DNA from: Nitrospiraceae bacterium
Lineage (GTDB): Bacteria; Nitrospirota; Nitrospiria; Nitrospirales; Nitrospiraceae
Reading direction: 5' to 3'
Assembly (NCBI GenBank): GCA_013140715.1
Contig: JABFSG010000031.1
Span: 1-40,539, forward strand
DNA length: 40,539 nt
Below are positions 2,824 through 17,478 of the stretch, in pieces. Made by a program: the position numbers and the translations under genes. Position 1 is the first letter of the stretch, and every line of letters begins with the position of its first letter. Below the pieces are notes generated by a model. That model saw only the letters and a program-made list of their open reading frames with translations, searched no databases and was not told where the DNA came from.

Positions 2824-2832
2824 AATTCTCCT

Positions 2833-3996: not shown

Positions 3997-4032
3997 ACAG
4001 TTTCCTCGTTCCATTGTGCCGGTAGTCTCGCG

Positions 4033-5007
4033 ATGCGCAACCCCACTGTTGTTCACCCTATCTTCTTTGTGCGCATCGGCCTCACCCTTGCGACGGTGGT
4101 CATCGCTATATTCTTGACCTGGCACAATGCGAAGGCGGACGAAGCTCTGCCAAGTTCCACACCAGACTTCCCACTGATCATTCGTACCCACTCCGACCAA
4201 TTAGCCAAACTAGAATCCGACAAAGAAGCCGGCGGTCTATTTGTATCGGCCATTGGTCCTGCGATCCAGTTGAGCGATGCAGCCAGAACCTTGGGGGCCA
4301 ATCCCTTACCGGCCAAGCTCATGAAGGAACTCTTGGTCCCGGATCTGACAGCGGCTGTCCATCGGTTGATGGGTAGCCTGGCTGCCTGGCGCTTCGCCTC
4401 CACCGTCAGACAGGCTGTAACGGATCGGTCATCCGCGCCGACGGCTGAACAATTATTCGGATCGCCACAAGCCAGAGCATGGCTCGATCGACAAGAAAAA
4501 TCGCCCTGGCATGGATCCTTAAAACAACTCTCCGAAGCTGTTGCTTCCCTGGAATGGGCCAAAGAGAATCAGGGTGAACCTGCAACAACTCTGTTGGTAT
4601 CGGCTTTGGAACAAGCCACTCGCCTGGAAATAGATACCCTACAGGCCGCCTATCAGGAATGGGACCGGATACGGAACTGGAAGGATCAGGTTCGTGGACT
4701 GCGCGGGCAGGCTCGGCTCTGTGGAACCTGGCAATGGATCGTGCATAACCATCAGCGAAACCATCAAGAGCAGAAACTGACACTTTCTTTTCCACCGGCA
4801 GGACAAACGCAGGCCACTCTCCCAGGGCTCATGGAAACAGTGGTGTTGGGCGAGAACGTCTACTTACGGTGGGAAATGGCTGGCCTTGTCCAGGAAGACA
4901 GTCTGCAATTCAGCAAAGAAGGACACCGTCTTGAAGGAATGTTCGTCAATTCCCAAGGAGGTTGGGGATCGGTCAGTGGAAAGAGAACGGCTGGCTGTAC
5001 GCCCTAG
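4033..5007 (+). CDS. Exported protein of unknown function
   Basis: The product has 324 residues. The N-terminus has an Arg then a hydrophobic run (FFVRIGLTLATVVIAIFLTW) and a signal-peptidase-like site NAKA-DEA near residue 36, so the protein is probably periplasmic. The middle is helical and the last 100 residues look beta-rich (LCGTWQWIVH, TVVLGENVYLRWEMAG, LEGMFVNSQGGWGSVSGKR), suggesting a small C-terminal beta domain. I do not recognise a family. It starts 36 bp after the hydrolase gene, likely in the same transcript, although no good Shine-Dalgarno precedes ATG 4033. Confidence 0.7.
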   Translation: MRNPTVVHPIFFVRIGLTLATVVIAIFLTWHNAKADEALPSSTPDFPLIIRTHSDQLAKLESDKEAGGLFVSAIGPAIQLSDAARTLGANPLPAKLMKELLVPDLTAAVHRLMGSLAAWRFASTVRQAVTDRSSAPTAEQLFGSPQARAWLDRQEKSPWHGSLKQLSEAVASLEWAKENQGEPATTLLVSALEQATRLEIDTLQAAYQEWDRIRNWKDQVRGLRGQARLCGTWQWIVHNHQRNHQEQKLTLSFPPAGQTQATLPGLMETVVLGENVYLRWEMAGLVQEDSLQFSKEGHRLEGMFVNSQGGWGSVSGKRTAGCTP

Positions 5008-5020
5008 AACGACGCGAGAA

Positions 5021-5093
5021 ACGCGAGACTCGCGCGAAGGGAGCGACGTTGGCAGAGTGGCGCACCTCGTCCCATTTTCCGCCAGTCTCGCGT
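5021..5093. repeat. REP-like inverted repeat between convergent genes
   Basis: ACGCGAGACT (5021-5030) and AGTCTCGCGT (5084-5093) are perfect 10-bp inverted arms. A further CGCGAGACTCGCG palindrome overlaps the left arm. It fills the space between the plus-strand gene ending at 5007 and the minus-strand DUF423 gene ending at 5104, a typical place for REP elements that can also end transcription. Confidence 0.45.
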
Positions 5094-5103
5094 GCCGATT
5101 CTG

Positions 5104-5517
5104 CTAGGACGTTCGGCTCGTGGTGCGAGGAGACGTATCCCGCCAGACTCCCCACCCCAACAGGAGCCAGCCAATGATGAATGCAAGCCCGCCAACAGGA
5201 GTCACAGCCCCCAGCCACCGGATGCCAGCTAGGGACACGCCGTACAGACTGCCGGAGAAAAGGAACATCCCCACGATAAAGAGCCAACCAGACTTTTGCA
5301 GGCCTTGCGCCGGGTACCGATCGATTGCCCAAGACACAATGCACAGCCCAAAGGCGTGATACATTAAATATCTCGTTGCAGTCTCGAACACCTGGAGCAT
5401 CGGTGCATCCAGAATCTCCTTGAGGGCATGGGCGCCAAAGGCGCCGGCAGCAACGCCGGATCCCGCAAGAATGGCCCCAAGCATCAGGAACTTCTGAGCG
5501 GGTGACCGACCTACCAT
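5104..5517 (-). CDS. DUF423 family small integral membrane protein
   Basis: The protein has 137 residues with four predicted membrane helices. The first, LMLGAILAGSGVAAGAFGAHAL, carries the family signature GAFGAHALK. Later segments YLMYHAFGLCIVSWAI, SGWLFIVGMFLFSGSLYGVSL and IRWLGAVTPVGGLAFIIGWLLLGWG complete the DUF423/YgdD pattern. The length is typical. Function is unknown for the family; it sits in the inner membrane. The start is supported by GAGGA 5 bases before ATG 5517. It is a single minus-strand gene with a convergent neighbour. Confidence 0.9.
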   Translation of the reverse strand: MVGRSPAQKFLMLGAILAGSGVAAGAFGAHALKEILDAPMLQVFETATRYLMYHAFGLCIVSWAIDRYPAQGLQKSGWLFIVGMFLFSGSLYGVSLAGIRWLGAVTPVGGLAFIIGWLLLGWGVWRDTSPRTTSRTS

Positions 5518-5739
5518 AGTATCCTCCTCGTTCGTGGACTGCCGTGCCTAACAGGTTCTTCCTATTGCTGTAGCCTTTGTGGTCCATCCGGCTGATCCCC
5601 TTCAGGTGAACGAACAGACCAACTCGACCACATGGGAGCCGCATATTAGCAGAGTGATCCGCACACTACCATTTCGAGTAAGCCTCCCCCACCTCATGGG
5701 GTATAGCCAGCCAATCCTTTCCAGACTATCCTTCGTAAC

Positions 5740-6117
5740 ATGATGACCTTAACGAAACAACAGAGCTGTTGGGCCAGTCCCAAGTTTACGATCGACTGCC
5801 TCCTGTCGAACGTGAGCAGGCAGATGGAAGCGGATGGCTGTGTACTCGAATTTTCCGAAGACGGGTGTAAGACCGCCACCCCCGATCAGATGGCCGTAGG
5901 GGATTTTGTCAAAGTCCAGCTATGGTTAGAGGGCGAGGAGGCCTTTGTCGACATCCGGCTGGCAGAAGTCAGACGAGTTCACAATCACTGGATCGCGCTG
6001 GAAGTGATCCAAGTGAGCCAAACCGACCGGGTAAAATTGAAACGATTTCTCGATACCCTCGCAGCGATGCGTACCGAAGCGCCTGCTTTCATCGACCATC
6101 TTCTTGTTCGGGCATAG
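5740..6117 (+). CDS. PilZ-like domain protein with degenerate ligand motif
   Basis: The protein has 125 residues. The central part (CVLEFSEDGCKTATPDQMAVGDFVKVQLWLEGEEAFVD... LAEVRRVHNHWIALEVIQVSQTDRVKLKRFL; quoted in pieces) follows the PilZ beta-barrel order, with FSEDGCK at the place of the D/N-x-S-x-x-G motif and a C-terminal helix. The upstream RxxxR motif that grips cyclic di-GMP is not visible (only SRQME is there). Binding may therefore be lost and the domain may act through protein contacts. The start could be ATG 5740 or 5743. It is a lone plus-strand gene. Confidence 0.65.
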   Translation: MMTLTKQQSCWASPKFTIDCLLSNVSRQMEADGCVLEFSEDGCKTATPDQMAVGDFVKVQLWLEGEEAFVDIRLAEVRRVHNHWIALEVIQVSQTDRVKLKRFLDTLAAMRTEAPAFIDHLLVRA

Positions 6118-6314
6118 TCCGGCGTCCGCCCTCAAGAGGGAATGAACGACAGGGTGGATCGCTCGACCAAATCGCCTTCGGCATTTGACGACAGAATACC
6201 GCGCGCGTGCCGAATCGACATCCAGGAGATAATTGCGGAATCAAGAACATAATAATCCGAAATTTCTCCAGCATGATCATAAAAAAACATCGATCGCTGA
6301 CATCGACGCCCAAG

Positions 6315-6791
6315 ATGCTTGACAGCTTCTTGGGAGTTTCCTTTGGCACGACGGGAACTCTGTCTCAGCCTCCTGATTCGCATAGAACGGGACTGCCTGC
6401 CTCAACCCCTCCCCCATCGCCTTCGTCGGGCACTGTTCGCTCCGCCCTGAAGAAATTTGTGGCACAGCTCTTCTCAGCAGACAACCCGGAGTCCCAGGCA
6501 CAGACGAATAGCCCTCAACAACCGTCAGTCCAGGCCGAACAAAGCGACACGACGGAATCTCTACTGAAGGCGGAACAGGAACGAACCAAGCAATTACGGC
6601 AGGAGCTCCTCACTGCCCGCTCGGCACTGAAACGGCTTGGTGATTTACAGACAGAGCTCGCAGTGGAACGGGAAACCGGGCAACAATTGGTTCAATTCCT
6701 TGAAGAAGCTGAAAAGGAGGCCCGAAAGGTTCCTCTGCTTGAGCGCTTGTTGAAGCAGCAATTCGATGCCGACAATACATCGGGCAAGTAA
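6315..6791 (+). CDS. Coiled-coil protein of unknown function
   Basis: The frame is open from 6207 but I place the start at ATG 6315 (MLDSFLGVSFG), giving 158 residues; ATG 6273 and GTG 6207 are alternatives and none has a clear ribosome site. The first third is rich in Pro, Ser and Thr and probably disordered. From about residue 75 it becomes a long charged helix (LLKAEQERTKQLRQELLTAR, LAVERETGQQLVQFLEEAEK) with heptad-like leucines, typical of a coiled coil. No catalytic motif is seen. It is the last chromosomal gene before the left end of the integrative element. Confidence 0.6.
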   Translation: MLDSFLGVSFGTTGTLSQPPDSHRTGLPASTPPPSPSSGTVRSALKKFVAQLFSADNPESQAQTNSPQQPSVQAEQSDTTESLLKAEQERTKQLRQELLTARSALKRLGDLQTELAVERETGQQLVQFLEEAEKEARKVPLLERLLKQQFDADNTSGK

Positions 6792-6901
6792 ATAGCCGGA
6801 GAGACCCTGAGTGGCTTGACCACTATTGATCTGCGGTTCAGCCAGCCTCTACTGATACAAAACTTCAAGCCGTGACGCTACTCAACGCGGTATTACGTTC
6901 T

Positions 6902-6925
6902 CTGGTGCCGGAGGCCAGAACTGAA
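6902..6925. repeat. Left attachment-site repeat (attL candidate)
   Basis: CTGGTGCCGGAGGCCAGAA followed by CTGAA matches 14767-14790 in 23 of 24 positions, in the same orientation. On the minus strand this reads as a tRNA acceptor end (CTCCGGCACCA). Upstream there is no tRNA body, so this copy is only the duplicated 3' tip. Confidence 0.75.
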
Positions 6926-7546
6926 GGAACGATGTCCGCGAGCCCTTATCCAGCGCCAGTTTGCCGAGATGCTCCAAGAAGGTGTAGACGGGAGAATACT
7001 CCTGGTGTAGCTAATTTACAAGCCCTCAAGTCCTTCCAATCTAGCCACGCCTGAAGCGATCTGACCTCAAAACTAGCCTAGGGCGTGTTTCTGAGTGCGT
7101 TGATCCTAGGGCATTCTAGAGCGTTCTAGAGTGGGTCGGATTCAGACAAAAAGATATACCCGCCAATTTTCACCATAACCCCTCAATTTCACTACAAAAA
7201 CTGCGTAAAAATCCGTCATCCTATCGTGGATTCGTCCACGCCGGTTTCCCCCGGTGGGGTGGTTCTCGATTCGGCACGCTCTCAGACTCAACTCAACGGG
7301 CGTCACTCGCTGCCATCTACACCGAACCTGACAACAAGGCCCTCAATCGCCAGTGCTAGAGCGGCGTTTGTACTACCTGGCTGAGGTATTCAGGTCTCAG
7401 GGTGGCCGGTTTGCTACACCAGAAGCTACACCAGCGAGCCTAGGCTTGTGGTATTGGCCTTGCCGGTACACCACCAGTTGTATGTGTTCGTTCGTCTCTA
7501 ACAAGCATGACCCATCATCCGGACCGGGCTGAAGGAGCCTCCCGCA
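6926..7546. other. Non-coding left arm of the element
   Basis: No gene is supported in this 620-bp stretch. It holds GGTGTAG at 6981 and GGTGTAGC at 7004, inverted copies GCTACACC at 7413 and 7425, and two CCTAGGGC repeats (7077, 7105). There are also two tandem 10-mers centred on TCTAGA (7112-7131). A hairpin CGTGGA-TTCG-TCCACG lies at 7225-7240. The density of repeats suggests recombinase or replication-protein binding sites and a structured RNA or promoter region ahead of the first cargo gene. Confidence 0.5.
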
Positions 7547-8143
7547 ATGAGTAGTCCCTGTATCGTTTCAACGTGCCCTCGACCGCTGGACCCTGTGGTC
7601 GGTGGACCCTACTGCAACATACACGGCAAGCAGCTACGCCGCTGTGGTTCGCTAGAGTTCACGTCCCTGAAGTCACCAGAACGTAGGCCGTACATCCTAG
7701 CTGCACGCGCACTGCTACCCCCTGGCTTAATTGGGGAGATGCAACAACTACTGGATAGCCTTCCGTTCGTAGACCAGCGCAACGTCAACGGCCTACGCCC
7801 GGCAGCGAAAGCGCGATGTATCCTCGTGAACATCCGACGCCAACGGGGCGCGGATGCTGCCAGGCTGATACTGGCTGCGGCCATTGGCGCGGAGTGCTGC
7901 CCAAAGCCGACAAGCAATGAGCGCTACCGAAAGGTGCAGGTTGCACGCTCCATCTTTCGTCTGCTTCGCTCGCAATCGTTCGAGTTGTTTGATAAGCGCG
8001 TGGTCTATCGAATCAGCCTTCAAGGGGGACGAGCGGCCCTCGCGCTCTGCGACATGGTGGAAGCACTCACGTACTTTTGGACGAAGGACAACAGACAACG
8101 CATTGTAGACGCAGCGAAGAACGAAAGAGGAGGGGCTCATTAA
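7547..8143 (+). CDS. Zinc-finger protein of unknown function
   Basis: The protein has 198 residues. The N-terminus holds C5-x4-C10-x12-C23-x2-H26, a CCCH zinc-binding arrangement like the short finger that precedes many phage HNH nucleases and DNA-binding proteins (C-x4-C ... C-x2-H). No HNH catalytic core follows. Residues 45-190 are helical and basic (RCILVNIRRQRGADAARLIL, YRKVQVARSIFRLLRSQ). A nucleic-acid-binding regulator is plausible. The start is set by AAGGAG nine bases before ATG 7547. It is the first cargo gene of the element and is followed by a repeat that overlaps its last codons. Confidence 0.7.
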   Translation: MSSPCIVSTCPRPLDPVVGGPYCNIHGKQLRRCGSLEFTSLKSPERRPYILAARALLPPGLIGEMQQLLDSLPFVDQRNVNGLRPAAKARCILVNIRRQRGADAARLILAAAIGAECCPKPTSNERYRKVQVARSIFRLLRSQSFELFDKRVVYRISLQGGRAALALCDMVEALTYFWTKDNRQRIVDAAKNERGGAH

Positions 8144-8252
8144 AATGAACCACCTTGTTTAGAGCTGTATATCCGTTCCAAGGTCGGTGAGACCGCCTGA
8201 AGAGGAGCGTGGGCTCATTAGAAATGGCTACTTCGTTTATAGCCGTGTATCC
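8133..8252 (+). repeat. Tandem pair of 42-bp elements, 78-bp period
   Basis: The stretches 8133-8174 and 8211-8252 align without gaps at 31 of 42 positions. Both start GGGCTCATTA and end with a TATCC-like tail (ATATCC, GTATCC). Each is followed at a similar distance by a different hairpin (GGTC-GGTGA-GACC after the first, a long terminator after the second). The first copy overlaps the stop codon of the preceding gene. The conserved layout with changed stem bases suggests a duplicated RNA or regulatory element. Confidence 0.5.
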
Positions 8253-8255
8253 ATC

Positions 8256-8290
8256 AGCCCTCAGTCTGGTTAGGCCAGATTGGGGGCTTT
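8256..8290 (+). terminator. Intrinsic terminator, first of two
   Basis: AGCCCTCAGTCTGG pairs with CCAGATTGGGGGCT, with two mismatched or wobble positions, around the loop TTAGG and is followed by TTGTT. It closes the transcript of the zinc-finger gene, or attenuates transcription into the six-gene cassette. Confidence 0.65.
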
Positions 8291-8293
8291 GTT

Positions 8294-8318
8294 GCTCGCC
8301 GCAAGGCGGGCTTTGTTT
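8294..8318 (+). terminator. Intrinsic terminator, second of two
   Basis: GCTCGCC and GGCGGGC form a 7-bp stem capped by a GCAA tetraloop and followed by TTTGTTT. It lies only 34 bases before the ribbon-helix-helix start codon, so it could act as an attenuator for the cassette. Confidence 0.6.
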
Positions 8319-8351
8319 CGCAACTTGTCCGACACCATAGGAGTTATCTCT

Positions 8352-8612
8352 ATGCCTGTATTCAATCGTAAACAATCGCCATCCGGCAGCACGAAGGCAG
8401 CGGTTCGCCTCTCGAACGACACGCTCGAAGGTCTTGAAGAGATCCGGCGTCTCTTTCGGCTCCGCTTTCCTCTGGCGAAGTTCCCCACCTTGAGCGCCTG
8501 TCTTGATTTGGCTCTCCGTCGCTACCTTGAAGAAGTCGGTGATGATCCCAAGAGTCTTCGGGCTGAAGTGCTGTTATTCAAGGAGAGGTACCAGAAGGAA
8601 GAGCCCCGATGA
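8352..8612 (+). CDS. Ribbon-helix-helix-like DNA-binding protein
   Basis: The product has 86 residues from ATG 8352, with GGAG about 10 bases upstream; the frame is open further upstream but through two terminators. KAAVRLSNDTLEGLEEIRRLF near residues 16-36 (a strand followed by helix 1) and LSACLDLALRRYLEEV (helix 2) fit the MetJ/Arc type ribbon-helix-helix pattern. A helical tail ends EERYQKEEPR-like. Such dimers act as operon repressors or relaxosome helpers. As the first gene of six overlapping genes it may autoregulate the cassette. The assignment rests on pattern only. Confidence 0.65.
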   Translation: MPVFNRKQSPSGSTKAAVRLSNDTLEGLEEIRRLFRLRFPLAKFPTLSACLDLALRRYLEEVGDDPKSLRAEVLLFKERYQKEEPR

Positions 8613-9049
8613 AGTACCGCACGAGGAGAGAGCTAGCTGCGTGGTCGATGGTGGAAGTCCTGGCGGAATTGGATGCCCTGAAGATTGAGCCAGAAAGTCA
8701 GACGGTCTACGCCGACGATGGCCCCACGATCAATGGGGTTCTGACGGTTGGTGAGGTTCCGGCGTGGCTGCACCAGTGGCAGAAAGAGGAGATCAAAGAA
8801 CAAGGGTTCTCGACGCTCACACTTGAACAACAAACGAACCGAGCCACGACGCTAGAGCGCTGGCGCGTGCAGCTCTATCAACACGGCGTCTGTGCGTATG
8901 TGGAATCACTGGGCATGGCCAAGGCTCAGCGCGAACTCAAAGCACGCCACGCGGAGTTGAGTACGTGGGAAGGACGCAACGCGACACGACAGGAAGTGGA
9001 GAAGAAGTTGATGCAGGCTATCGAGAACGAAACAGAGGAGGACGTATGA
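8609..9049 (+). CDS. Cassette protein of unknown function
   Basis: The protein has 146 residues, soluble and strongly helical, acidic overall with many Glu and Gln. It shows no motif I recognise. WSMVEVLAELDALKIEPES at the N-terminus and a charged C-terminal helix (MAKAQRELKARHAELSTWEG) are its main features. Its ATG overlaps the stop of the ribbon-helix-helix gene by 4 bp (ATGA), which implies translational coupling and fixes the start. A structural or adaptor role in the cassette is possible but unsupported. Confidence 0.7.
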   Translation: MKYRTRRELAAWSMVEVLAELDALKIEPESQTVYADDGPTINGVLTVGEVPAWLHQWQKEEIKEQGFSTLTLEQQTNRATTLERWRVQLYQHGVCAYVESLGMAKAQRELKARHAELSTWEGRNATRQEVEKKLMQAIENETEEDV

Positions 9050-9300
9050 GCGCACCACTTGAAGGACACAATCTGAAGAGGGCTTCAGCGGATTGTTACC
9101 TGTGCGGCTGTGGGTTCGGTATCTTCGGAGCACGAGACCAACGCGAGGCGACACAGCGACATGGCCAACATCTCACTGAAGTACGGGCGCAGAGAACACG
9201 GACCACCGACGCACAAAAAGAAAAGAGACAGGCTGATTTTGCAGACGCGCAAGAGCCTCACTGGTCCAGCCCCTTTCGACGAGGAGTCTTAGGACAATGA
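9046..9300 (+). CDS. Small C2H2-type zinc-finger-like protein
   Basis: The product has 84 residues from ATG 9046, which overlaps the previous stop in ATGA. It contains C17-x2-C20 followed by H39-x2-H42 (CYLC ... RHGQH), an 18-residue loop and therefore longer than a classical finger, but a credible zinc site. The C-terminal half is very basic and hydrophilic (RAQRTRTTDAQKEKRQADF) and may touch nucleic acid. No homologue comes to mind. Being translationally coupled to both neighbours supports it as a real gene. Confidence 0.65.
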   Translation: MSAPLEGHNLKRASADCYLCGCGFGIFGARDQREATQRHGQHLTEVRAQRTRTTDAQKEKRQADFADAQEPHWSSPFRRGVLGQ

Positions 9301-9506
9301 GAGTGATTCAGAGAGAGACAAAACTAAACCGTAACGGCGTGCCGATATTGGACCCGCCACGCAGGGCACAGCGCACACTTGACACCACGACAGCGGAGCG
9401 TGAAGCGAAGCTGCGAGAGACCGAGAAGCATTGGGAAGAGCATATCAAGCTCCAAGGCCAACGCCCGCGAAACCGACATTTCACCACTAACACAGGGAGA
9501 TTTTGA
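9297..9506 (+). CDS. Small basic cassette protein
   Basis: The protein has 69 residues, starting with an ATGA overlap on the previous gene. It is hydrophilic and highly charged: a Pro-rich LNRNGVPILDPPRRAQ segment, then a helix TTAEREAKLRETEKHWEEHI, then a basic tail. It has no membrane segment and no known motif. It could be a small nucleic-acid-binding or adaptor protein. Support comes mainly from its position in the overlapping array. Confidence 0.55.
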   Translation: MRVIQRETKLNRNGVPILDPPRRAQRTLDTTTAEREAKLRETEKHWEEHIKLQGQRPRNRHFTTNTGRF

Positions 9507-9508
9507 AC

Positions 9509-10153
9509 ATGGGACAGCTTTTCTATAGGAAGTTCATTGACCAGATGGCACGCGAAGGGTTCAGCGAATATGACGCCGCACAGATGGAGGGTGCCCGCGA
9601 AGCTCACGAACAAGACCGTATTGCTGATCAGAACGTGATGAAGGCGAAGACCACAGCGCAATGGCTGAAGCCAGATGCTCAGGGCAAGCCCACGGTAGCC
9701 TTCGAAACTCAAGAGCAGATGCTCACAGCAATTAATGATCCCCTCTACAAGTCCTCACCGGCCTACCGGGATGCGGTCCAAGACTGTATTGGCCGCATGG
9801 CGACCGTGACACCGAACATTGAGCACGGAGTAGGCGTGGACTTCTCTGTTGAGAGTCTCGCCGTAGCGACACGGAAAGAAGCGGCGAGGGATGCCTACAG
9901 AAAGCTTGTGGTTCAGGCCGGGCGCGATCCACAAGCCCGAATGCAGCTGATCGAACTGCTCAACAATCCAGATCCTTCCGTACAGGCTTGGATTAGCGAG
10001 GGAACAGACGCGATTGGCAACGAAGGGCCAGGACAACGGATGATGAGAGAAGCTGGTAGCGGAAGTTATGGGCCTGATTTGGGCAAGGCGATGGCGGCTG
10101 ACGAGAATAACGGACCAGTGACAGAGGCGGAAGCAGGCAAGGTGCCGGCATGA
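9509..10153 (+). CDS. Cassette protein of unknown function
   Basis: The protein has 214 residues from ATG 9509, with AGGGAGA about nine bases upstream; a TTG at 9503 would overlap the previous stop and is the other option. The N-terminus (GQLFYRKFIDQMAREGFSEY) and the middle (AARDAYRKLVVQAGRDPQAR) are helical. A Gly-rich, acidic C-terminus follows. The profile, soluble and helical with a flexible tail, is like many phage accessory or structural-assembly proteins, but I cannot assign one. It overlaps the next gene by 4 bp. Confidence 0.65.
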   Translation: MGQLFYRKFIDQMAREGFSEYDAAQMEGAREAHEQDRIADQNVMKAKTTAQWLKPDAQGKPTVAFETQEQMLTAINDPLYKSSPAYRDAVQDCIGRMATVTPNIEHGVGVDFSVESLAVATRKEAARDAYRKLVVQAGRDPQARMQLIELLNNPDPSVQAWISEGTDAIGNEGPGQRMMREAGSGSYGPDLGKAMAADENNGPVTEAEAGKVPA

Positions 10154-10380
10154 AGTGGCCATTCAAGACGGTCGAAGAGGTTGCAGCGATCACAAAGCCT
10201 GAGCCGGCCCCGGTACCAGTAGCCCCGGTGCTCTCTCCCGCATTTCCGGTGGCTGACTATCTCCGCATTCCTCCCGTAAACACCAAGCCCGTCCATGTGC
10301 CAAAGCCGGTTGAAGTGTTCCCTAATTGCACAGGCGTGTACACGGTCAACGGGATTTCGACCCACCGAAAAGATAACTAA
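10150..10380 (+). CDS. Pro/Val-rich small cassette protein
   Basis: The protein has 76 residues and starts in an ATGA overlap. It begins MKWPFKTVEEVAAITKPEPA and continues with a Pro-Val-rich stretch (PAPVPVAPVLSPAFPVADYL), probably extended and disordered, then VFPNCTGVYTVNGIST at the end. It has no signal peptide. It is the last gene of the coupled array. Function unknown. Confidence 0.5.
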   Translation: MKWPFKTVEEVAAITKPEPAPVPVAPVLSPAFPVADYLRIPPVNTKPVHVPKPVEVFPNCTGVYTVNGISTHRKDN

Positions 10381-10598
10381 GAGTCTAGGGATGTTGTCCT
10401 AGGCGACCTGGACAGGCTCGTGGGGAAAGTCCTCCAGCTTTCTCTGCGAGCTTGCACAGGCTCTTTCTTCTCTCTCTCTCTCTCGTGGGTGCCCGCTCCC
10501 TTCGGTCGCGCGGATCGGATTCGGATATAGACAAACAGTGCCTTAATTCCCCTACCACCTAGCACGCCTTTAGGTGTGCACAAAGGAGACAGACGAAC

Positions 10599-11507
10599 AT
10601 GACGACGCCGGAACATTCAACACAGGCAGCAGCATCTTGGGAAGACACCGTGACGATGATCGGGGAGCCCGATGTCTTGACGGACGAAGAGCGAGACTTA
10701 CGCAAGTTGCCGATGAAGGACATCGGTGTCCGACCGGATTACTTCCAGCCGAGGCAGTTTCTTGACAATGCGGCGGAGAGTGAGAAGGCTATTGAGGAGT
10801 TTACGCGAGTGATCCAAAGCGGAGGGCGACTCCCCCCGATTAGTGTCATGAAGATCGGTGGGCGCTGGTACGTGATCGACGGACACCACAGGCTCGACGC
10901 ATATGGAGCGGTAGCGAGAGCACGCAAGGTTGCCCTGAGGAAGTCTGGCAAGCGGGGGAAAGAACTCACCCACATTCCGGTGACGGTGTTTGAGGGTACG
11001 ATCCAACAGGCGCGGGACGAGTCGGTGAGAAAGAACTGTCACGACCATGTGAACATGAGCCGGAGCGATAAGATGCAAGAGGCCTGGCAACGAGTCGCAG
11101 AAGGTCAGCACACGACCAAGGAGATTTGGCAACTCTCCTCTATCTCCGTGCGGATGGTGTACTACATGCGCGTGATCCTGGCGAAGGCGCGGACGCTTCA
11201 ACCTGAAGTGAACTTTGCAACAGGGTGGAAATGGGTTGAGGTGTTGCGGTTGGTGCATGGTCTGGAGCCCAAGACAGATCAAGAGAGTCTTGATCAGCAG
11301 TGGGTGGAGTCGAAAAGCCGACACTTCCAGAAGACGTTTGGAGCCGATGCGAGGAAGAAGACGCGGCTCTTTGCACGAGTCATCCGCAAGGGCGATGCGC
11401 CTCTGTCGGTGACACTTGGACAGGAACTGGTAGCCCTTGATCGACAAGCCGACCAAGACGAGGCGACCGCAGCCAGGGTAGAACGAGAGGCCGAACTAGG
11501 GGGTTAA
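10599..11507 (+). CDS. ParB/Spo0J-like N-terminal domain protein
   Basis: The protein has 302 residues. Residues 36-125 resemble the ParB/sulfiredoxin-like domain: KDIGVRPDYFQPRQF as the first strand region and YVIDGHHRLDAYGA at 91-104 for the GxxR nucleotide-binding (CTPase) motif. A helix-turn-helix-like region follows (TTKEIWQLSSISVRMVYYMR), then a charged helical tail. In ParB proteins this fold binds CTP; related proteins are nucleases or regulators. There is no ParA next to it, so a partition role is not evident and a regulator or replication helper is more likely. An AAAGGAG site precedes ATG 10599. The 218-bp gap upstream has a (CT)n run and no gene. Confidence 0.8.
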   Translation: MTTPEHSTQAAASWEDTVTMIGEPDVLTDEERDLRKLPMKDIGVRPDYFQPRQFLDNAAESEKAIEEFTRVIQSGGRLPPISVMKIGGRWYVIDGHHRLDAYGAVARARKVALRKSGKRGKELTHIPVTVFEGTIQQARDESVRKNCHDHVNMSRSDKMQEAWQRVAEGQHTTKEIWQLSSISVRMVYYMRVILAKARTLQPEVNFATGWKWVEVLRLVHGLEPKTDQESLDQQWVESKSRHFQKTFGADARKKTRLFARVIRKGDAPLSVTLGQELVALDRQADQDEATAARVEREAELGG

Positions 11508-11625
11508 AACTGGCCCAAACGGATTGACATGGTATAGGGGGTGCACCGTGCAGTACCGACCGAGAAGGGCTTGACCCATCTAACATCTTGATTAGTCTGG
11601 AAAACTCCAGGAAACACGCGCGATT

Positions 11626-11651
11626 GATCAAGGCACACATGTTTCTTGATC
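11626..11651. promoter_or_regulatory. Inverted repeat ahead of the 11729 gene
   Basis: GATCAAG (11626-11632) and CTTGATC (11645-11651) form 7-bp arms around a 12-base spacer, with no U-tract after them. It is an operator candidate rather than a terminator. The flanking 220-bp gap is otherwise empty. Confidence 0.3.
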
Positions 11652-11728
11652 GTTGAGGAAAAAATGGGAGACTTCCATATCCTTTGGGCTTATCCTTGGC
11701 CACCCTCACCAGATGGAAGGAGAGGGCT

Positions 11729-12310
11729 ATGCCCGACAAAGAGAAAAAATTAAACATTGAGCACGCTCCTTGGCTACTAGAGGCGCGGGCCAAAAGTCAG
11801 CGCTTGCTTCTGCGTCTGTATATCTTAGGTCAGGAAAACGCCAACGCCAATTTACTGCAAGGCGATTCTAAGCGACAGTCCCTTTTTGCTATGTTTGTTG
11901 GAGCAGCCTTCTCACTGTGGAGAGCTGCTTTCTTATGTGATACGAAACAAAACTGGGAGGTCAATTTCCAGGGTGCAAACTATCTTCTGGTGAAGCTCAT
12001 AGAAGACAACTCCGTTAACTTTTCAGCAGATCAACAATCGCAAGAATGGATGGGTGGCTACTATCTGAACAACGCTATGTTTCGGCTCCTTTGGGTCCGC
12101 GCAAAGCTTCAAAACCTCGCGCCAGAGACCAAAGACGATCCCGCTTTGATTGCGTTGGATGCTTTGGAGAACTCTGATTGGTCTGGTGGGATTGAACTCA
12201 ACAAGAACTCAAAGAAGATATGGAACGATTTGATTAACGCGCTAGAGGTAATGGTTGACTGGCTCAAAGTGCCTAAGGTTAAGCAGCCCCGTCGTGGCAG
12301 TCGGCCTTGA
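11729..12310 (+). CDS. Element-borne protein of unknown function
   Basis: The protein has 193 residues from ATG 11729, chosen because GGAAGGAGAGGG lies just upstream; the frame is open from 11684. It is helical with several Trp and hydrophobic runs (SLFAMFVGAAFSLWRAAFLC, GGYYLNNAMFRLLWVRAKLQ) but these look like buried helices rather than clear membrane spans. The codon use seems more A/T rich than in the cassette genes, suggesting a different origin. I recognise no family. It converges with the lipoprotein gene 13 bp downstream. Confidence 0.6.
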   Translation: MPDKEKKLNIEHAPWLLEARAKSQRLLLRLYILGQENANANLLQGDSKRQSLFAMFVGAAFSLWRAAFLCDTKQNWEVNFQGANYLLVKLIEDNSVNFSADQQSQEWMGGYYLNNAMFRLLWVRAKLQNLAPETKDDPALIALDALENSDWSGGIELNKNSKKIWNDLINALEVMVDWLKVPKVKQPRRGSRP

Positions 12311-12323
12311 ACGAATTGTCAGA

Positions 12324-12674
12324 TTACCGTGGTCTGATCTCTATAACCGAATCAGGAGCACTTTCCCAACGAACTGGTTGTATCCCCCCGCTGCAACCAC
12401 TTACGTGTGATCTGTACGAATTAATTCCCGCTACGCGTCCCGCGTTCAGCCAAATGATCTTGTGGTCGTTCCAGCCGAACCCCGCACCAGATACGCAGTA
12501 TTGCCACGCCTCTTGCTGTCCCCGCACTTGACGATCCGTTGGCGTCCCCATAACTTCAAGAACGCGTTCTTTTGAGTCTCCGACATTCAGAAGGATAGTT
12601 TTGTTATCAAGTGTTCCGCAGCCCGCCGCGACGAGTGAAAGAACAAGTGCTATCGCTGCCATTGAAGTACGCAT
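12324..12674 (-). CDS. BamE/SmpA-like lipoprotein
   Basis: The protein has 116 residues from ATG 12674; a longer frame exists only with a TTG start and lacks a signal peptide at its front. MRTSMAAIALVLSLVAAGC is a lipoprotein signal with lipobox VAAGC. After it, LNVGDSKERVLEVMGTPTDR, then QQEAWQYCV, resemble the SmpA/OmlA (BamE) domain, where a G-x-x-x-x-x-V-x-x-x-x-G-x-P helix precedes the sheet. In the chromosome BamE is part of the outer-membrane beta-barrel assembly machine. Here it is element cargo, so it may be a modifier of the envelope, for instance in phage resistance or exclusion, which is speculation. Its start has no strong ribosome site. Confidence 0.7.
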   Translation of the reverse strand: MRTSMAAIALVLSLVAAGCGTLDNKTILLNVGDSKERVLEVMGTPTDRQVRGQQEAWQYCVSGAGFGWNDHKIIWLNAGRVAGINSYRSHVSGCSGGIQPVRWESAPDSVIEIRPR

Positions 12675-12840
12675 CACGTCACCCAGTTTAGAAGGGTACT
12701 TATAAAACCGCAAGGCGGAGAAGGACTAGGGAGCGCACGCCTTCGCCAACAAGACGAGGAGTATCGGGAAGAGACCAAGCCAGAGCAGATTCAGCAGTCG
12801 GAGTTTCACAACTTAACCTGAAAGGACGGTGATCTAGATT

Positions 12841-12963
12841 ATGAAACAAGGAACCAATCACGGCAGCGTCCCCGCGAACCAACCGAGACCCTGGCGCAGT
12901 GAACAAGAGCAGCGGAGTTCACAGGCGAAGAAGGCCAGCACGCCCGCAGTCCCTAAGAAGTAA
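12841..12963 (+). CDS. Small hydrophilic ORF, 40 residues
   Basis: ATG 12841 to TAA 12961-12963 gives 40 residues, rich in Gln, Ser, Lys and Pro with a basic C-terminus (STPAVPKK). AAAGGA lies 14 bases upstream, farther than ideal. It sits between the lipoprotein and integrase genes. It may be a real mini-protein or a chance frame; no homologue is known to me. Confidence 0.3.
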   Translation: MKQGTNHGSVPANQPRPWRSEQEQRSSQAKKASTPAVPKK

Positions 12964-12967
12964 GGGA

Positions 12968-13105
12968 CTACTTCGGATGAATGCTCGCCGGTGCGGGCTG
13001 GTTTGGCTGTGGCAAAAATGGGTTCGTATTTGGTCCCAAGTTTGTCGATTGCCAGACCAGTACCGGCAGCACCGCCAACAACAACGCGAGTTTAACGACT
13101 CTCAT
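12968..13105 (-). CDS. 45-residue membrane-anchored or exported mini-protein overlapping int
   Basis: From ATG 13105 the minus strand reads MRVVKLALLLAVLPVLVWQS followed by a Pro/Asn-rich tail ending ASIHPK and a TAG at 12968-12970. A strong AAGGAGGG site sits 6 bases before the ATG, inside the last codons of the integrase gene, which ends at 13092. The hydrophobic N-terminus could be a signal or anchor. The ribosome site and the overlap argue that it is translated. The family is unknown. Confidence 0.5.
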   Translation of the reverse strand: MRVVKLALLLAVLPVLVWQSTNLGPNTNPFLPQPNQPAPASIHPK

Positions 13106-14669
13106 GTTGTCCCTCCTTGGTGAGTACCTTCAGCACCGCAGGAAACTGCATCTTCTCCAAGCCATCACGCAACCGAGACAACGGCGTCAATTCTCGGTGG
13201 GCGTAGACCTTATCGTGTACCGTGGTGGCCGTGTGGCCGGTCAACATCTCCGCTACGTCTTGGGGACAGCCCAAGGCGTGGAGGTAGTGGATACCGTGGC
13301 GTAGCGAGTGCAGGACTAGCTCTGGCTGCGAGAGTCCTACCCTGTCGAGATGCTGAGCAAACCACTTGCCGACAGCATCCGCGTAGCCATTGACCCTGTG
13401 CGGGAGTTGGTGAAAAAGTCGCGTCTGTCCCTGTGCTCTCGCGGCCTCTACATAATCCAGGAAGCCGAGTGCAATCAGACTTGAGTGAATGGGTATGGTG
13501 CGCCGGCTCCCCTTGTTCTTCACTGATTGATTCTCTCCTCGGTCGGTGATCGTCAGACACGGAATCCCGTCTTTCACTCCAATATCAGCCAGGGCCAGTT
13601 GTGCGGCCTCTTCTCTCCGACAGAGTTGAAACAAACATAACAGCGAGATCCAATAGCGTGCTGGACGTTTCATCCTTTGTGCAAGAAAGTTCGGTGACGA
13701 AAACACACGCAACAACTCCTCATCAGTGAAGGGTCTTACTTTCGTGGCTCCCTTCTCTTGATCTATCTTCGAGGGTGGCAGACCCTTGGCGGGATTGGGA
13801 AAACCTTCCGGCGTGTAGTCTTGCTTCTCAGCCCAGGTAAATAACCCCGACAGCGTGTTCAGATGCTTTGCGACCGTCCGAAGGCTGACGCCACGTTCAT
13901 TCAACAGGTGATCTTTATATGCCCGTCCTTCAGCCTTCGTGATGCTGGCAATCGGACGATCCCCCCCAATAACCGTCTGGAACTTCTCGAACTCTTTCCG
14001 CACTTGGTCGGCGGAGCGTCTGGCGTAGGGATTCTCTACGAGGTATTTCTTCAGCACGACAGAGTACAGCGGGCTCTTCTTGACTGGGGGAGTAGCGGCA
14101 GGAACAAGAGCAGCACCCGTTAGACGTGGCCGGTACTGGCCTTGCCATCGCTCAACTTCAGTCGTCAACATCTCTTGCTTCGCCAACAGGAAGGCACGGC
14201 AGGCACGTTTGAAAGGAAGGGAGTTCGGATCAAGTGCGGGCATCCCCCCGGCGCGCAGCATGGTCTGGACCTCTTCGGCGATACGATCATACCGATGAGC
14301 CGAGAGCGTGCCCTCGGTCTCTTCGAGTCGTTCGATGGTCTCGTCAACCATAATCTCTTGCTGGTCCTCATCGAGTCGATGCAGCGCGCGATAGTCTTCT
14401 GACTTTTCCAGTTCAGCATCCATTGTGCGGGCGATCAAGGCGGCAATGTCAGCTTGGCTCATATACGCTCCGTGGGTCTTCAGTAAGAGGAACAGCCGTT
14501 GCGTGCGTGCGGCCCACTCCAACGAACGAAGTTTCGCATGCTCCTTATCGGCTGTCGAGAGCGATCGCCAAAGTTGAGCACGCCCACCAAACAAGGGACG
14601 TAGACGACGAGGGACCACAGCACGAAAATAGAAGGATTGACGGTTGCCAGGAAGAAAGAGTGTAGCCAT
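13092..14669 (-). CDS. Tyrosine recombinase (integrase)
   Basis: The protein has 525 residues from ATG 14669, set by GGAGG four bases upstream; the frame extends upstream through the tRNA region, which is an artefact. The N-terminus (FLPGNRQSFYFRAVVPRRLR) is the arm-type domain found in DUF6538 integrases. A SAM-like core-binding region follows (MKRPARYWISLLCLFQLC is already catalytic). Catalytic residues visible are Arg in LCRREEAAQL, the HSLRHG box (His-x-x-Arg) and LTGHTATTVHDKVYAH with the nucleophile Tyr. It recombines the element at the tRNA-derived 24-bp core next to its 5' end. GTGTAGC copies overlap its start, so it may autorepress. Confidence 0.95.
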   Translation of the reverse strand: MATLFLPGNRQSFYFRAVVPRRLRPLFGGRAQLWRSLSTADKEHAKLRSLEWAARTQRLFLLLKTHGAYMSQADIAALIARTMDAELEKSEDYRALHRLDEDQQEIMVDETIERLEETEGTLSAHRYDRIAEEVQTMLRAGGMPALDPNSLPFKRACRAFLLAKQEMLTTEVERWQGQYRPRLTGAALVPAATPPVKKSPLYSVVLKKYLVENPYARRSADQVRKEFEKFQTVIGGDRPIASITKAEGRAYKDHLLNERGVSLRTVAKHLNTLSGLFTWAEKQDYTPEGFPNPAKGLPPSKIDQEKGATKVRPFTDEELLRVFSSPNFLAQRMKRPARYWISLLCLFQLCRREEAAQLALADIGVKDGIPCLTITDRGENQSVKNKGSRRTIPIHSSLIALGFLDYVEAARAQGQTRLFHQLPHRVNGYADAVGKWFAQHLDRVGLSQPELVLHSLRHGIHYLHALGCPQDVAEMLTGHTATTVHDKVYAHRELTPLSRLRDGLEKMQFPAVLKVLTKEGQHESR

Positions 14670-14766
14670 ACCCCCTCCAAAGTGTGTAGCAGTGGTGTAG
14701 CTGCCATCACTTTCTTGGGGTCTGGAACGCTGAAACGCCGCTCTGGTGGCTGCGTTTAGCGTTTTG

Positions 14767-14790
14767 CTGGTGCCGGAGGCCAGAATTGAA
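14767..14790. repeat. Right attachment-site repeat (attR candidate)
   Basis: This copy matches 6902-6925 with one mismatch. It reads on the minus strand as the 3' part of a tRNA T-arm and acceptor stem with an encoded CCA end. It lies between the integrase promoter region and tRNA-Leu. Confidence 0.75.
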
Positions 14791-14797
14791 CCGGCAT
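14768..14797 (-). pseudogene. Orphan tRNA 3'-half
   Basis: On the minus strand GCCGG-TTCAATT-CTGGC forms a T-arm, followed by CTCCGGC, A and CCA. The matching 5' half (GCCGGAG...) is absent: only about 21 bases separate this T-arm from the end of tRNA-Leu. It is therefore a tRNA remnant, not a gene. It differs in sequence from the neighbouring tRNA-Leu, so it was not duplicated from it. Confidence 0.6.
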
Positions 14798-14818
14798 GCG
14801 CTTTTTGGGCATGAGCTT

Positions 14819-14906
14819 TGGTGCGGATGGCGGGACTTGAACCCGCACGGCCTTGTGAGCCACAGGATTTTAAGTCCTGGGTGTCTGCCGATTCCACCAC
14901 ATCCGC
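14819..14906 (-). tRNA. tRNA-Leu (anticodon UAA)
   Basis: The minus strand gives acceptor GCGGATG pairing with CATCCGC, then A and encoded CCA. The anticodon arm CAGGA-CTTAAAA-TCCTG puts TAA at positions 34-36, and the T-arm GCGGG-TTCAAGT-CCCGC is canonical. A long variable arm gives a total of 88 nt, as expected for class II tRNA-Leu. It decodes UUA and UUG. It stands just outside the right end of the integrative element, but its own 3' end is not the repeated att sequence. Confidence 0.95.
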
Positions 14907-15155
14907 CAAAGGCAGTGGAGGGATGATAGCGGAGGCCTCGGTGTCCTGCAAGCGCTCTTCGGCGGGTGGGGTATCACATGTTGCTGTTGCATAGCTCGGC
15001 AGCGCGCGAATTAGAATCAGGCCTGAGGAAGGTCTATAAGAATGTTACGCCCTTACGTCTGCCATTTTTGCCACTCCGGCAGCAGAGTCCGCAGTGGCAG
15101 AACTCACGCCTCGTGGTCTCGTCGGTCAAGGTCGGCTCATAGAACTGGAGAGCAA

Positions 15156-15189
15156 GGGCAGGCGCCGCCGTAAGTGGCGGGGCCTGCCC
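15156..15189. terminator. Strong GC-rich hairpin after the YtxH-like gene
   Basis: GGGCAGGC pairs with GCCTGCCC, with CCGCC/GGCGG extending the stem around a short loop. It sits 33 bp beyond the stop of the minus-strand YtxH gene. U-tracts are poor on both sides, so rho-independent action is uncertain. Confidence 0.4.
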
Positions 15190-15221
15190 CCAGGGCTCGA
15201 TCGATAAGCGAGTCAATCTGC

Positions 15222-15482
15222 CTACGCCGCTTCGATCTGCGGCCTCTGCTCCTCCTTAGGGACGCGAGCCCTGTTGCGATCGATCACTTCCTTGACCCCA
15301 GACTGAACCGTTCGACCCCATCGGGTCGCCTGCAATTGCGCTTTTTTTGCATAGCGACCGACATTGCGCCGGCTTTCGGTACCAGCTTGCGGCGCAAAGA
15401 GCAATCCAATTCCCGCCCCGATTACCGCCCCACCTGCTACCAACGCTGCGGCCTTCGCTACGTGACGTCCCCGATTCGACAT
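15222..15482 (-). CDS. YtxH-like membrane-anchored small protein
   Basis: The protein has 86 residues from ATG 15482, with GGAGG seven bases upstream; a longer frame has no ribosome site. The N-terminus MSNRGRHVAK is basic, followed by one Gly/Ala-rich membrane span (AALVAGGAVIGAGIGLLFAP) and QAGTESRRNVG. The span and the LLFAPQAGTESRR-like signature are hallmarks of YtxH (general stress) proteins. The tail is amphipathic and basic. A stress role in the family is known in Gram-positives; here it is inferred. Confidence 0.8.
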   Translation of the reverse strand: MSNRGRHVAKAAALVAGGAVIGAGIGLLFAPQAGTESRRNVGRYAKKAQLQATRWGRTVQSGVKEVIDRNRARVPKEEQRPQIEAA

Positions 15483-15763
15483 GGTGAACCTCCAAGTACG
15501 GTTAATGAAGAATGTGATTACTGAGAGCCTCCACAGTCTTGCTCTCTCCATCAGCAGTAAGCGTGCCAGAGATGAAATCGCAAAAATCTCCGGTGAATCG
15601 TCGCAACCTGGCTCCCACGATTAGGCGCGATTAATTTTCCGTTGTGTTTTCCTCACAGGTCGCAGCACAAGCGTGACAGAAAACCAACATACGAAAGGGA
15701 TAGACCTGGCAAAGTGGCTCTGGCCAATGATCGACACCGACTATTCATCCGGCATCCGCCTGC

Positions 15764-15792
15764 TTGCAATGGTCGAGACCCTCACCTATGAT
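15764..15792 (+). promoter_or_regulatory. Promoter for the small ORF-lgt operon
   Basis: TTGCAA (15764-15769) and TATGAT (15787-15792) are separated by 17 bases. Start of transcription would fall near 15799, giving a leader of about 50 bases before ATG 15852. The rest of the 369-bp gap from 15483 holds no gene that I can support. Confidence 0.5.
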
Positions 15793-15851
15793 TCTCCAAT
15801 AGGAGCCTGTCCGAGTAATCCTTCGTTGCGAGGCGAAGGAGACGCTGGCAG

Positions 15852-16007
15852 ATGAGCGGCGCGGGCTCGAAAAAACCGGAGGCGTATTTGCTGGAATACG
15901 TTGAGGATTTTTTTCTGGCCGAGAACGACGCAGATACCGGCGGATCGTTTACCTCAGTAGAAGAGCATTGCTCGAACAGACTCCTCGGCCACATGAGGCA
16001 AAAATGA
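15852..16007 (+). CDS. 51-residue ORF translationally coupled to lgt
   Basis: ATG 15852 follows AAGGAG by 10 bases. The product is 51 residues, soluble and acidic in the middle (YLLEYVEDFFLAENDADTGG), with no signal peptide. Its TGA at 16005-16007 overlaps the ATG of lgt at 16004 (ATGA), so translation of the two is probably linked. It carries no motif I know. Either it is a real small protein or a leader peptide that sets lgt translation. Confidence 0.55.
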   Translation: MSGAGSKKPEAYLLEYVEDFFLAENDADTGGSFTSVEEHCSNRLLGHMRQK

Positions 16008-16816
16008 CTTGGTTGCACGCGATCCCCTATCCCAATATCAGCCCGGTTTTCCTGGAGCTGGGTCCCCTGCAGTTTCGCTGGTATGGCCTGATGTACCTGA
16101 TCGGGCTGGCCGGCGCCTATTTCCTGATCCTGCGTCGAGTGCAGTCGAAAGGCATCTCCATGACCAAGGATCAGGTCTACAATATGATCGTGTGGGCGGC
16201 CTTCGGGGTGTTTATCGGAGGACGGCTCGGCTACACCCTCTTCTATAATTTTTCCTACTATGTGGAGCATCCGCTCAGCATCGTGGCGGTGTGGGAGGGA
16301 GGCATGTCCTTCCACGGCGGCTTGCTCGGCGTGATCGTGGCCCTATTCTGGTTCAGCCAACGGCAGGGCATTCCCGCCTATCAGATCGCAGACTTGGCAG
16401 CTGCCACCACACCAATAGGGCTGGGGTTCGGTCGACTCGGCAATTTTATCAATGGGGAATTGTACGGCCGAGCCACCGATGTCGACTGGTGTATGGTGTT
16501 TCCGAGCGGGGGACCTGCCTGCCGCCACCCCTCGCAACTGTATGAGGCAGGCCTTGAGGGTCTACTCCTATTCACCCTGTTATGGATCGTCGCGAAAACC
16601 TCTCCGCCTCCCGGCACCATCTTCTGGAGTTTTATCACCGGCTACGGACTCTGCCGCATGCTGGTAGAGTTCGTTCGCGAGCCGGATGCTCAACTCGGTT
16701 TTATCCTCGGATCCTTCTCAATGGGCCAGCTCCTCTCCTTGCCTATGGTGGTGTTAGGAGTCTTTATGCTCGCCGTCGGCTATCAGAAAAGATCTTTGAT
16801 TCAGGCTAAATCATAG
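16004..16816 (+). CDS. lgt: Prolipoprotein diacylglyceryl transferase
   Basis: The protein has 270 residues from ATG 16004, the start chosen from the ATGA overlap. It has seven or so membrane helices and the Lgt signatures FRWYGLMYLIGL near the N-terminus, GGRLGYTLFYN, SFHGGLLGVI with the conserved His, and GRLGNFINGELYGR with the essential Arg and Asn. HPSQLYEAGLEG and the C-terminal GYGLCRMLVEFVREPD complete the pattern. It transfers diacylglycerol from phosphatidylglycerol to the lipobox Cys in the inner membrane, the first step for the lipoproteins encoded elsewhere in this window. The length is typical. A hairpin follows the stop. Confidence 0.97.
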   Translation: MTWLHAIPYPNISPVFLELGPLQFRWYGLMYLIGLAGAYFLILRRVQSKGISMTKDQVYNMIVWAAFGVFIGGRLGYTLFYNFSYYVEHPLSIVAVWEGGMSFHGGLLGVIVALFWFSQRQGIPAYQIADLAAATTPIGLGFGRLGNFINGELYGRATDVDWCMVFPSGGPACRHPSQLYEAGLEGLLLFTLLWIVAKTSPPPGTIFWSFITGYGLCRMLVEFVREPDAQLGFILGSFSMGQLLSLPMVVLGVFMLAVGYQKRSLIQAKS

Positions 16817-16839
16817 GTAATTATTCAGGTAGATAGACT

Positions 16840-16877
16840 GAAGACTGAAGACTGAAGGCTTCTAGTCTTCGGTCTTC
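16840..16877. terminator. Hairpin between convergent lgt and metallopeptidase genes
   Basis: GAAGACTGAAGACT (16840-16853) pairs with AGTCTTCGGTCTTC (16864-16877), 14 bp with one G-U, around a 10-base loop. Direct GACTGAA repeats build both arms. It is placed to stop transcription from lgt. Confidence 0.5.
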
Positions 16878-17014
16878 GGCTTTCAGCCTGCTAATGACAG
16901 GTTCATTTCTGCTTGACCCCAAGGCCATAGAAAGCGAGAAGGGTTGAATGGTTGGGTTCGCGTCCTGCGAGATATTTTTTAGCCTTCAGCCTAAGCACCT
17001 GAGTAGCTACAACC

Positions 17015-17380
17015 CTAGTACGGCATCTCCTCGTCATCCAGTCCGACATGGTGTCCGAGTTCATGGACAACCGTATCCCACACCTCCTGCATGACTTCGG
17101 CCTTCGTCCGACAGAAACGCAGAATGGGACCTCGATAGATGGAGATTCGGGCCGGCAATTGACCGGCAGGCTGGAAGAAAGACGTTTCGTCGGTCGGAAC
17201 ACCTTGATACAGACCCAACAGGTCGTCTTCCGATTCCAACTCAAGGTCCCGCAAAACCTCAGCCGAAGGTTCCTCTTCGACCACAATCGAGACATCGTTG
17301 GCAAGCGCCGCAAAGCGAGCCGGCAGCCCGGCGAGTGCCTCGTGAATCCAGGCCTCGAATTCTTCCGGCGAGACAGTCAT
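17015..17380 (-). CDS. Zincin-like metallopeptidase family protein
   Basis: The protein has 121 residues. HELGHHVGLDD at 106-116 is the HExxHxxGxxD zinc site with His106, Glu107 and His110 and a later Asp as third ligand. The N-terminal MTVSPEEFEAWIHEALAGLP and the middle LLGLYQGVPTDE, RISIYRGPILRFC match the minimal zincin PF06262-type family. It has no signal peptide, so it should be cytoplasmic; the substrate is unknown. The length is typical. Its start has a poor ribosome site (AGG). It is downstream of, and oriented like, addA, 98 bp away. Confidence 0.88.
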   Translation of the reverse strand: MTVSPEEFEAWIHEALAGLPARFAALANDVSIVVEEEPSAEVLRDLELESEDDLLGLYQGVPTDETSFFQPAGQLPARISIYRGPILRFCRTKAEVMQEVWDTVVHELGHHVGLDDEEMPY

Positions 17381-17387
17381 TGGACCT

Positions 17388-17470
17388 GTATCTGGTTTAT
17401 TTGGTTTGTTTTGTTTATTTGGTTGATTTGGTTCATCAGATTAGATTCGTTCAACCAAACAAACCAGCTA
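17388..17470. repeat. T/G-rich repeat upstream of the metallopeptidase gene
   Basis: Tandem TTTGGTTTGT- and TTTATTTGGTTGA-like units run for about 60 bases, followed by the inverse TCAACCAAACAAACCAG. The units echo 1746-1809, which has GGTTTATTTGGTTTGT and ACAAACCAGG. Together they define a dispersed repeat family, possibly able to form a hairpin between addA and the metallopeptidase gene. Confidence 0.4.
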
Positions 17471-17478
17471 ACGGCCTG

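Follow-up and report, generated by a model that had tools for sequence, protein, structure and literature searches.

A split tRNA-Leu(UAA) gene with a foreign substitute beside an integrative element in a Nitrospiraceae genome

Integrative islands of the textbook kind leave the host transfer RNA (tRNA) gene in which they sit intact. Contig JABFSG010000031.1 of a Nitrospiraceae bacterium (assembly GCA_013140715.1), of which we analyzed a stretch of 40,539 nucleotides (hereafter the window), raises the question of what became of such a gene. A 7.9-kb element in the window is flanked by 24-bp direct repeats derived from a tRNA, and the rest of that tRNA appeared to be missing. An earlier description made from the letters of this DNA (the sequence-only reading) proposed either that the element had brought its attachment (att) sequence from another tRNA gene or that an ancestral tandem tRNA had been truncated here. 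We compared the genome of the window (G000) with a set of other genomes and contigs, which carry G and C labels. This comparison indicates that the original, essential tRNA-Leu(UAA) gene of the locus was split, probably by mobile DNA, and that a foreign tRNA gene with the same anticodon took its place.

The native tRNA-Leu(UAA) gene and its remnants

The two 24-bp repeats differ by one mismatch, and no match to the repeat is expected in shuffled sequence. On the minus strand the repeat reads TTCARTTCTGGCCTCCGGCACCAG and runs from the T-loop to the acceptor 3' end with its CCA, as the sequence-only reading had recognized. That reading was also correct that the adjacent intact tRNA-Leu(UAA), the single intact tRNA that ARAGORN detects in the window, is not the source of the repeat because its 3' end differs. 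The genome search that it proposed returned nothing: among the 44 tRNAs of the whole genome, no intact tRNA starts with GCCGGAG or has the 24-bp core as its 3' end. An att core taken from another tRNA gene of the same genome was therefore rejected as a candidate.

In related genomes the locus holds one intact copy of a genus-native tRNA-Leu(UAA), a 90-nt gene (GCCGGAGTGGCGAAATTGGCAGACGCAAGGGACTTAAAATCC...GGCCTCCGGCACCA) of the GCCGGAG...CTCCGGC type. Named records that share its 3' half come mostly from Nitrospira species, and a search of 60 relatives with the tRNA region found the 24-bp repeat and roughly 25 nt upstream of it kept across the genus. The same gene can be recognized in the window in two pieces. 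Native nucleotides 43-90 correspond to a 3' remnant that contains the proximal repeat and is 93.9% identical over 49 bp to the native genes of genomes G005 and G030. Nucleotides 1-31 are found further upstream with 3 mismatches in 31, where the chance expectation is 0, and this 5' remnant runs on into upstream homology with G005 (15050-15569, E 1e-73). Roughly 11 nt of the native gene, the anticodon stem-loop region, have no counterpart in the window. The first 42 nt of the native gene have decayed in the window, whereas 18 of the 32 genomes examined in the genus carry them with 0-1 mismatches. The halves are separated by 234 bp, and the intact tRNA-Leu(UAA) lies inside this interval.

These positions change the outline of the locus. 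It had been thought that neither end of the element carries the rest of the tRNA; in fact the right end has 49 nt of it, and the 5' 31 nt lie beyond the intact tRNA. The right boundary drawn at 14797 cuts through a larger split tRNA gene that reaches 15080. Judged from the sequence, what seemed an 'orphan' repeat on either side of the ~8-kb element is what survives of the original tRNA-Leu(UAA) gene at its 3' end. The suggestion of a truncated tandem tRNA was half right, since a tRNA is indeed broken here, but it is the native tRNA-Leu(UAA) itself and not a tandem neighbor.

The state of the locus before these changes is represented by G005. There, the intact native gene sits between flanks that are collinear with both window flanks (1882-6757 on the left, 15050-21016 on the right), and because of this arrangement we read contig C7 of G005 as the empty site, collinear with the window and with the core lying within an intact tRNA-Leu(UAA) of the GCCGGAG type. 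Its downstream flank aligns with 6853-6925 at E 2e-7, and 5663-6757 aligns at 78%. An empty-site comparison had been suggested for this element, the adverse outcome being a site that lacks the core; in G005 the core is in place. In a tree of lgt, G000 is sister to G030, which has kept the native gene, and both fall within the native-type clade. The split is therefore derived.

The substitute tRNA and how it may have arrived

The tRNA that lies between the native halves is normal in fold and in Rfam score (Table 1) and shares 77% identity with the native type. Of 396 genomes searched in the phylum, the closest match, at 89%, is the resident tRNA-Leu(UAA) of genus g28 in the same family, and the two agree in the D, anticodon and T arms. 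Within the 234-bp insert, only the tRNA part is matched by plasmids and phages, at ~73-82% among the matches listed. A genus-wide census of the UAA-tRNA signature found one intact gene per genome where the signature was found, with any extras being fragments or contig ends; G000 has exactly one, the substitute. By these comparisons the substitute is foreign to the native type and the only tRNA of its kind in the genome. UUA codons occur in genes of the window, and by established decoding rules the sole UAA tRNA gene should therefore be essential.

Departures from the native type are seen in other genomes as well. G001, G003, G011, G021 and G024 (L088, L065, L092, L271 and L070) have a resident tRNA-Leu(UAA) unlike the native type, with a GGCATACGC D arm. 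As read, the loci of G001, G003, G011 and G024 are syntenic with the window, and this essential tRNA is therefore unusually variable within one genus. In g28 (L237, G072:C14, ~10857), an orphan 3' half of a GCCGGAG-type tRNA-Leu(UAA) lies no more than ~10 bp beyond the resident tRNA-Leu(UAA), which is of the GCGGGAG type, an arrangement hinting at an independent replacement of a similar kind.

Across the genus, the tRNA-Leu(UAA) locus is occupied in three ways: by donation of a 3' half, by donation of a leader with a 5' half, and by substitution of the whole gene. Classical 3'-half donation is found in G007, G018 and G025. In G022 and G009 a leader and 5' half are donated; the rebuilt tRNA is preceded, ~27 bp upstream, by the end of a 406-aa integrase, and the native 5' half with its promoter is left behind as an orphan. 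Whole-gene substitution is represented by G008: on contig C99 an integrase open reading frame (ORF) comes after the native 5' half, and on C117, which also holds a ParB-like gene, a complete foreign tRNA-Leu(UAA) precedes the native 3' half. The G008 junctions have a 12-bp anticodon core in common, GGACTTAAAATC; the corresponding region of the window has been lost. No intact native tRNA-Leu(UAA) was found in G008, and native halves lying apart with no intact native copy are features of both G000 and G008. As far as sequence can tell, G008 fits a gene-splitting event with the element still present, which would be the live form. The anticodon-loop site is used by independent elements in G007, G008, G009, G022 and G025.

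We propose that the locus is the native tRNA-Leu(UAA) site of a Nitrospira-type genus and was hit twice by integrative elements. In one event, an element that recombined in the anticodon loop with its own complete tRNA-Leu(UAA) aboard would have split the native gene without rebuilding it, and the tRNA of the element would have taken over UUA decoding. The remainder of this first element would later have been deleted, leaving an indispensable tRNA between two decaying native halves. In the other event, the 7.9-kb element with its DUF6538 tyrosine recombinase would have entered the T-arm/CCA end of the native gene, giving rise to the 24-bp repeats. Two such stacked events at the native tRNA-Leu(UAA) are, in our judgment, the likely explanation of the locus. 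The arrival of the substitute on an anticodon-loop element is suggested by analogy with G008, and the substitute is presumably expressed and the first element presumably deleted. The window may thus be the fossil of an event of the tRNA-dependent-lysogeny type, with the layout of G008 minus the element.

Several observations weigh against this account. Between 14816 and 15049 there is no second integrase and no core repeat left, the first element being gone from the window, and the 143-bp segment within this interval does not significantly resemble the element ends of either G008 or G022 (best p ~0.05). No sigma-70 consensus promoter was found upstream of the substitute tRNA; a candidate picked out by eye was rejected on the promoter check. 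The assemblies of G000 and G008 are drafts, and in G008 the native halves are on separate contigs. The proposed order is loose, in that the 7.9-kb element may have entered before or after the gene was split. Finally, import of the tRNA by homologous recombination is a competing route.

In this competing explanation, a small foreign fragment of ~230 bp that included the tRNA was put into the native gene by homologous recombination or illegitimate insertion, and no integrase-driven element took part. The inserted segment is indeed only ~234 bp long with no recognizable element gene or att repeat, and at the same locus a different genus of the family has a resident gene similar to the substitute. 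However, the native gene is broken on either side of the anticodon loop, where tRNA integrases normally cross over and where independent elements have done so in five relatives. No long donor homology flanks the tRNA, as only the tRNA itself aligns, and a homologous replacement would replace the gene and not split it. We consider import of a fragment unlikely, though not negligible.

Tandem accretion, by which a classical anticodon-loop island restored a chimeric tRNA that is now seen as the intact tRNA-Leu(UAA), has precedents in the classical 3'-half donations at the same locus in relatives and in the same nested anticodon/3'-end arrangement at the tRNA-Phe gene of G109, described below. It predicts an intact tRNA that starts with the native 5' half, whereas here the native 5' half is separate and the intact tRNA differs from the native one in both acceptor stem and D arm, making such accretion very improbable. 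That the element arrived with att from another tRNA gene, at a locus that had never held any tRNA but the intact tRNA-Leu, would agree with a genome devoid of an intact tRNA having this 3' end, but it is refuted by the two native halves in order at the syntenic locus, which identify the source of the core, and by the relatives' intact gene exactly there. The parting at the anticodon loop might suggest tRNA halves that are joined in trans or, since group I introns are known from the anticodon of tRNA-Leu(UAA), a gene interrupted by an intron, yet we give this almost no credence: a covariance-model search for group I introns, which covered the window and eight related loci, gave no match, the 5' remnant is substituted where 18 relatives show 0-1 mismatch, and a complete tRNA lies inside.

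The 7.9-kb element

Our results agree with the sequence-only reading that an integrative element is present, as an integrase-like ORF sits between the 24-bp repeats and adjoins the right-hand copy. The element has tRNA-derived direct repeats at both ends with the integrase at the tRNA-proximal end, and integrase homologues have the same layout. The integrase keeps the catalytic residues of a tyrosine recombinase (R351, K384, R457, H479 and Y489), which are invariant among homologues; no PF00589 match was found in the window contig. The closer homologues in the family (36-49% identity) are located just 3' of tRNA-His, tRNA-Leu(GAG) or tRNA-Glu. Because homologues lie at tRNA 3' ends, this integrase family appears to use such ends, and sequence comparison likewise places the target of the 7.9-kb element at a tRNA 3' end.

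A more distant integrase of the window type is found in the complete genome of G109 (L163/L247, C1:3931080-3973709) beside an orphan tRNA-Phe 3' half. This site holds two nested islands, with an intact tRNA-Phe 30 kb upstream, the orphan 3' half beginning from the anticodon, and an 18-nt end at the far side. Nesting with anticodon-level islands therefore occurs elsewhere too.

The cargo is small and comprises a ParB-like protein, one head-assembly-like ORF, whose PF05396 match is below the cut-off of that family, and ORFs without matches. A homologue 31% identical to the ParB-like protein is encoded on the G008 contig bearing the foreign tRNA. No relatives of the element were found among phages or viral contigs. 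An imperfect 42-nt repeat (8133-8174 and 8211-8252; 74%, 78-bp spacing) precedes the small ORF at 8352 and is possibly a duplicated leader or operator. Outside the element, stretches of 35-70 bp (540-582, 1745-1815, 2830-2873, 2980-3024 and 17383-17426) match several non-syntenic places in relatives and are probably a dispersed family of small repeats in the genus.

Table 1. Features of the locus and related elements (window positions unless a genome and contig are named)
Feature	Location	Strand	Evidence or remark
Native chromosome downstream of the original tRNA-Leu(UAA), outside the element	6853..6901	-	Alignment to G005:C7 downstream flank
Displaced 3' end of native tRNA-Leu(UAA), distal 24-bp repeat	6902..6925	-	2 mismatches to G005 native gene
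Element ORF, 198 aa	7547..8143	+	No family match
Element ORF, 86 aa	8352..8612	+	No family match
Element ORF, 146 aa	8609..9049	+	No family match
Element ORF, weak short match to phage head-assembly/T7 capsid-assembly families	9503..10153	+	phrog_1052 E 4e-7, ~43 residues
ParB-like protein	10599..11507	+	phrog_1033 E 1.7e-15
Element ORF, 193 aa	11729..12310	+	No family match
525-aa tyrosine recombinase with DUF6538 N-terminus, integrase of the 7.9-kb element	13092..14669	-	phrog_1 integrase E 9e-33
Proximal 24-bp repeat (att core), inside the 3' remnant	14767..14790	-	
3' remnant of native tRNA-Leu(UAA), nt 43-90 plus one base	14767..14815	-	
Complete foreign tRNA-Leu(UAA), substitute	14819..14906	-	ARAGORN; Rfam 59.1 bits; fold
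143-bp segment separating the substitute tRNA from the native 5' remnant; presumably what is left of an element, with the leader of the substitute	14907..15049	-	Absent from G005 empty site
5' remnant of native tRNA-Leu(UAA), nt 1-31, decayed	15050..15080	-	Contiguous with upstream homology to G005
Native upstream flank of the original tRNA gene, toward lgt at 15968-16816 (+)	15081..15569	-	G005 alignment; lgt tree
Putative whole-tRNA-substituting element, parts	G008:C99:156-1410 (L138); G008:C117:1876-3593 (L089)		
5'-half-donating element	G022:C128:1949-3284 (L141) with C533:13724 (L140)		
5'-half-donating element	G009:C31:65145-66480 (L143) with C45:14060 (L142)		

Known systems and meaning for the family

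The closest parallel is tRNA-dependent lysogeny, described for actinobacteriophages with cores of 8-11 bp and a phage tRNA of the same isotype (Guerrero-Bustamante and Hatfull 2024, PMC10865867). As in that system, a unique host tRNA gene is disrupted and not rebuilt; entry via a short core, and complementation of the loss by an element tRNA of the same isotype, are what the G008 junctions suggest and what may apply to the window. However, that system is described mainly for actinobacteriophages with intact prophages, whereas the window belongs to another phylum and is known from sequence alone; here the element is gone and its putative tRNA is the only resident copy. A prophage-borne tRNA of Sinorhizobium meliloti offers a second likeness, in that integration swaps the host tRNA gene for one resembling that of unrelated bacteria (PMC11476347). 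In that case the prophage or island is present, whereas the window is reduced to a ~230-bp remnant with a second element at the broken 3' end. Reports of prophage tRNAs standing in for host ones thus exist already (PMC10865867; PMC11476347). In the open papers, we found no report of a vehicle lost with the substitute kept as sole isoacceptor, or of a second element at the 3' end of a broken tRNA gene.

The 7.9-kb element itself resembles Islander-type islands, with their anticodon (A) and T-stem/junction (J) crossovers, in its tyrosine recombinase, its tRNA 3'-end repeats and its tRNA-proximal integrase, but the tRNA at its proximal end is itself broken (PMC4383910). Islander-type searches match each intact tRNA to a fragment of itself (PMC4383910), and a locus such as that of the window would therefore be missed. 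The elements of G022 and G009 bring a leader and 5' half with the integrase directly upstream, as pTN3-like integrases do when they rebuild a tRNA from the 5' half, a rare archaeal layout; these elements are bacterial, and the window event differs in being a whole-gene substitution (PMC8371274). Donation of a 5' half is seldom seen in bacteria (PMC8371274), and a 5' fragment was recorded in 159 of 3919 Islander islands (PMC4383910).

If an essential single-copy tRNA gene was destroyed here and a foreign one has outlasted its vehicle, mobile elements can rewrite a core gene of translation, and the signature of tRNA-dependent integration would extend beyond its known hosts. Two native halves around a foreign tRNA with the same anticodon would be a readable fossil signature, marking a class of islands overlooked by searches that pair an intact tRNA with its own fragment. 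It is also a caution against assuming vertical descent for every 'resident' tRNA gene. More tentatively, it is possible that in Nitrospiraceae elements carrying a whole tRNA-Leu(UAA) repeatedly take over this essential single-copy function, with loss of the element leading to permanent dependence of the host. Were this true, repeated takeovers at one locus would account for the dissimilar clade types GCCGGAG, GGGGATG and GCGGGAG.

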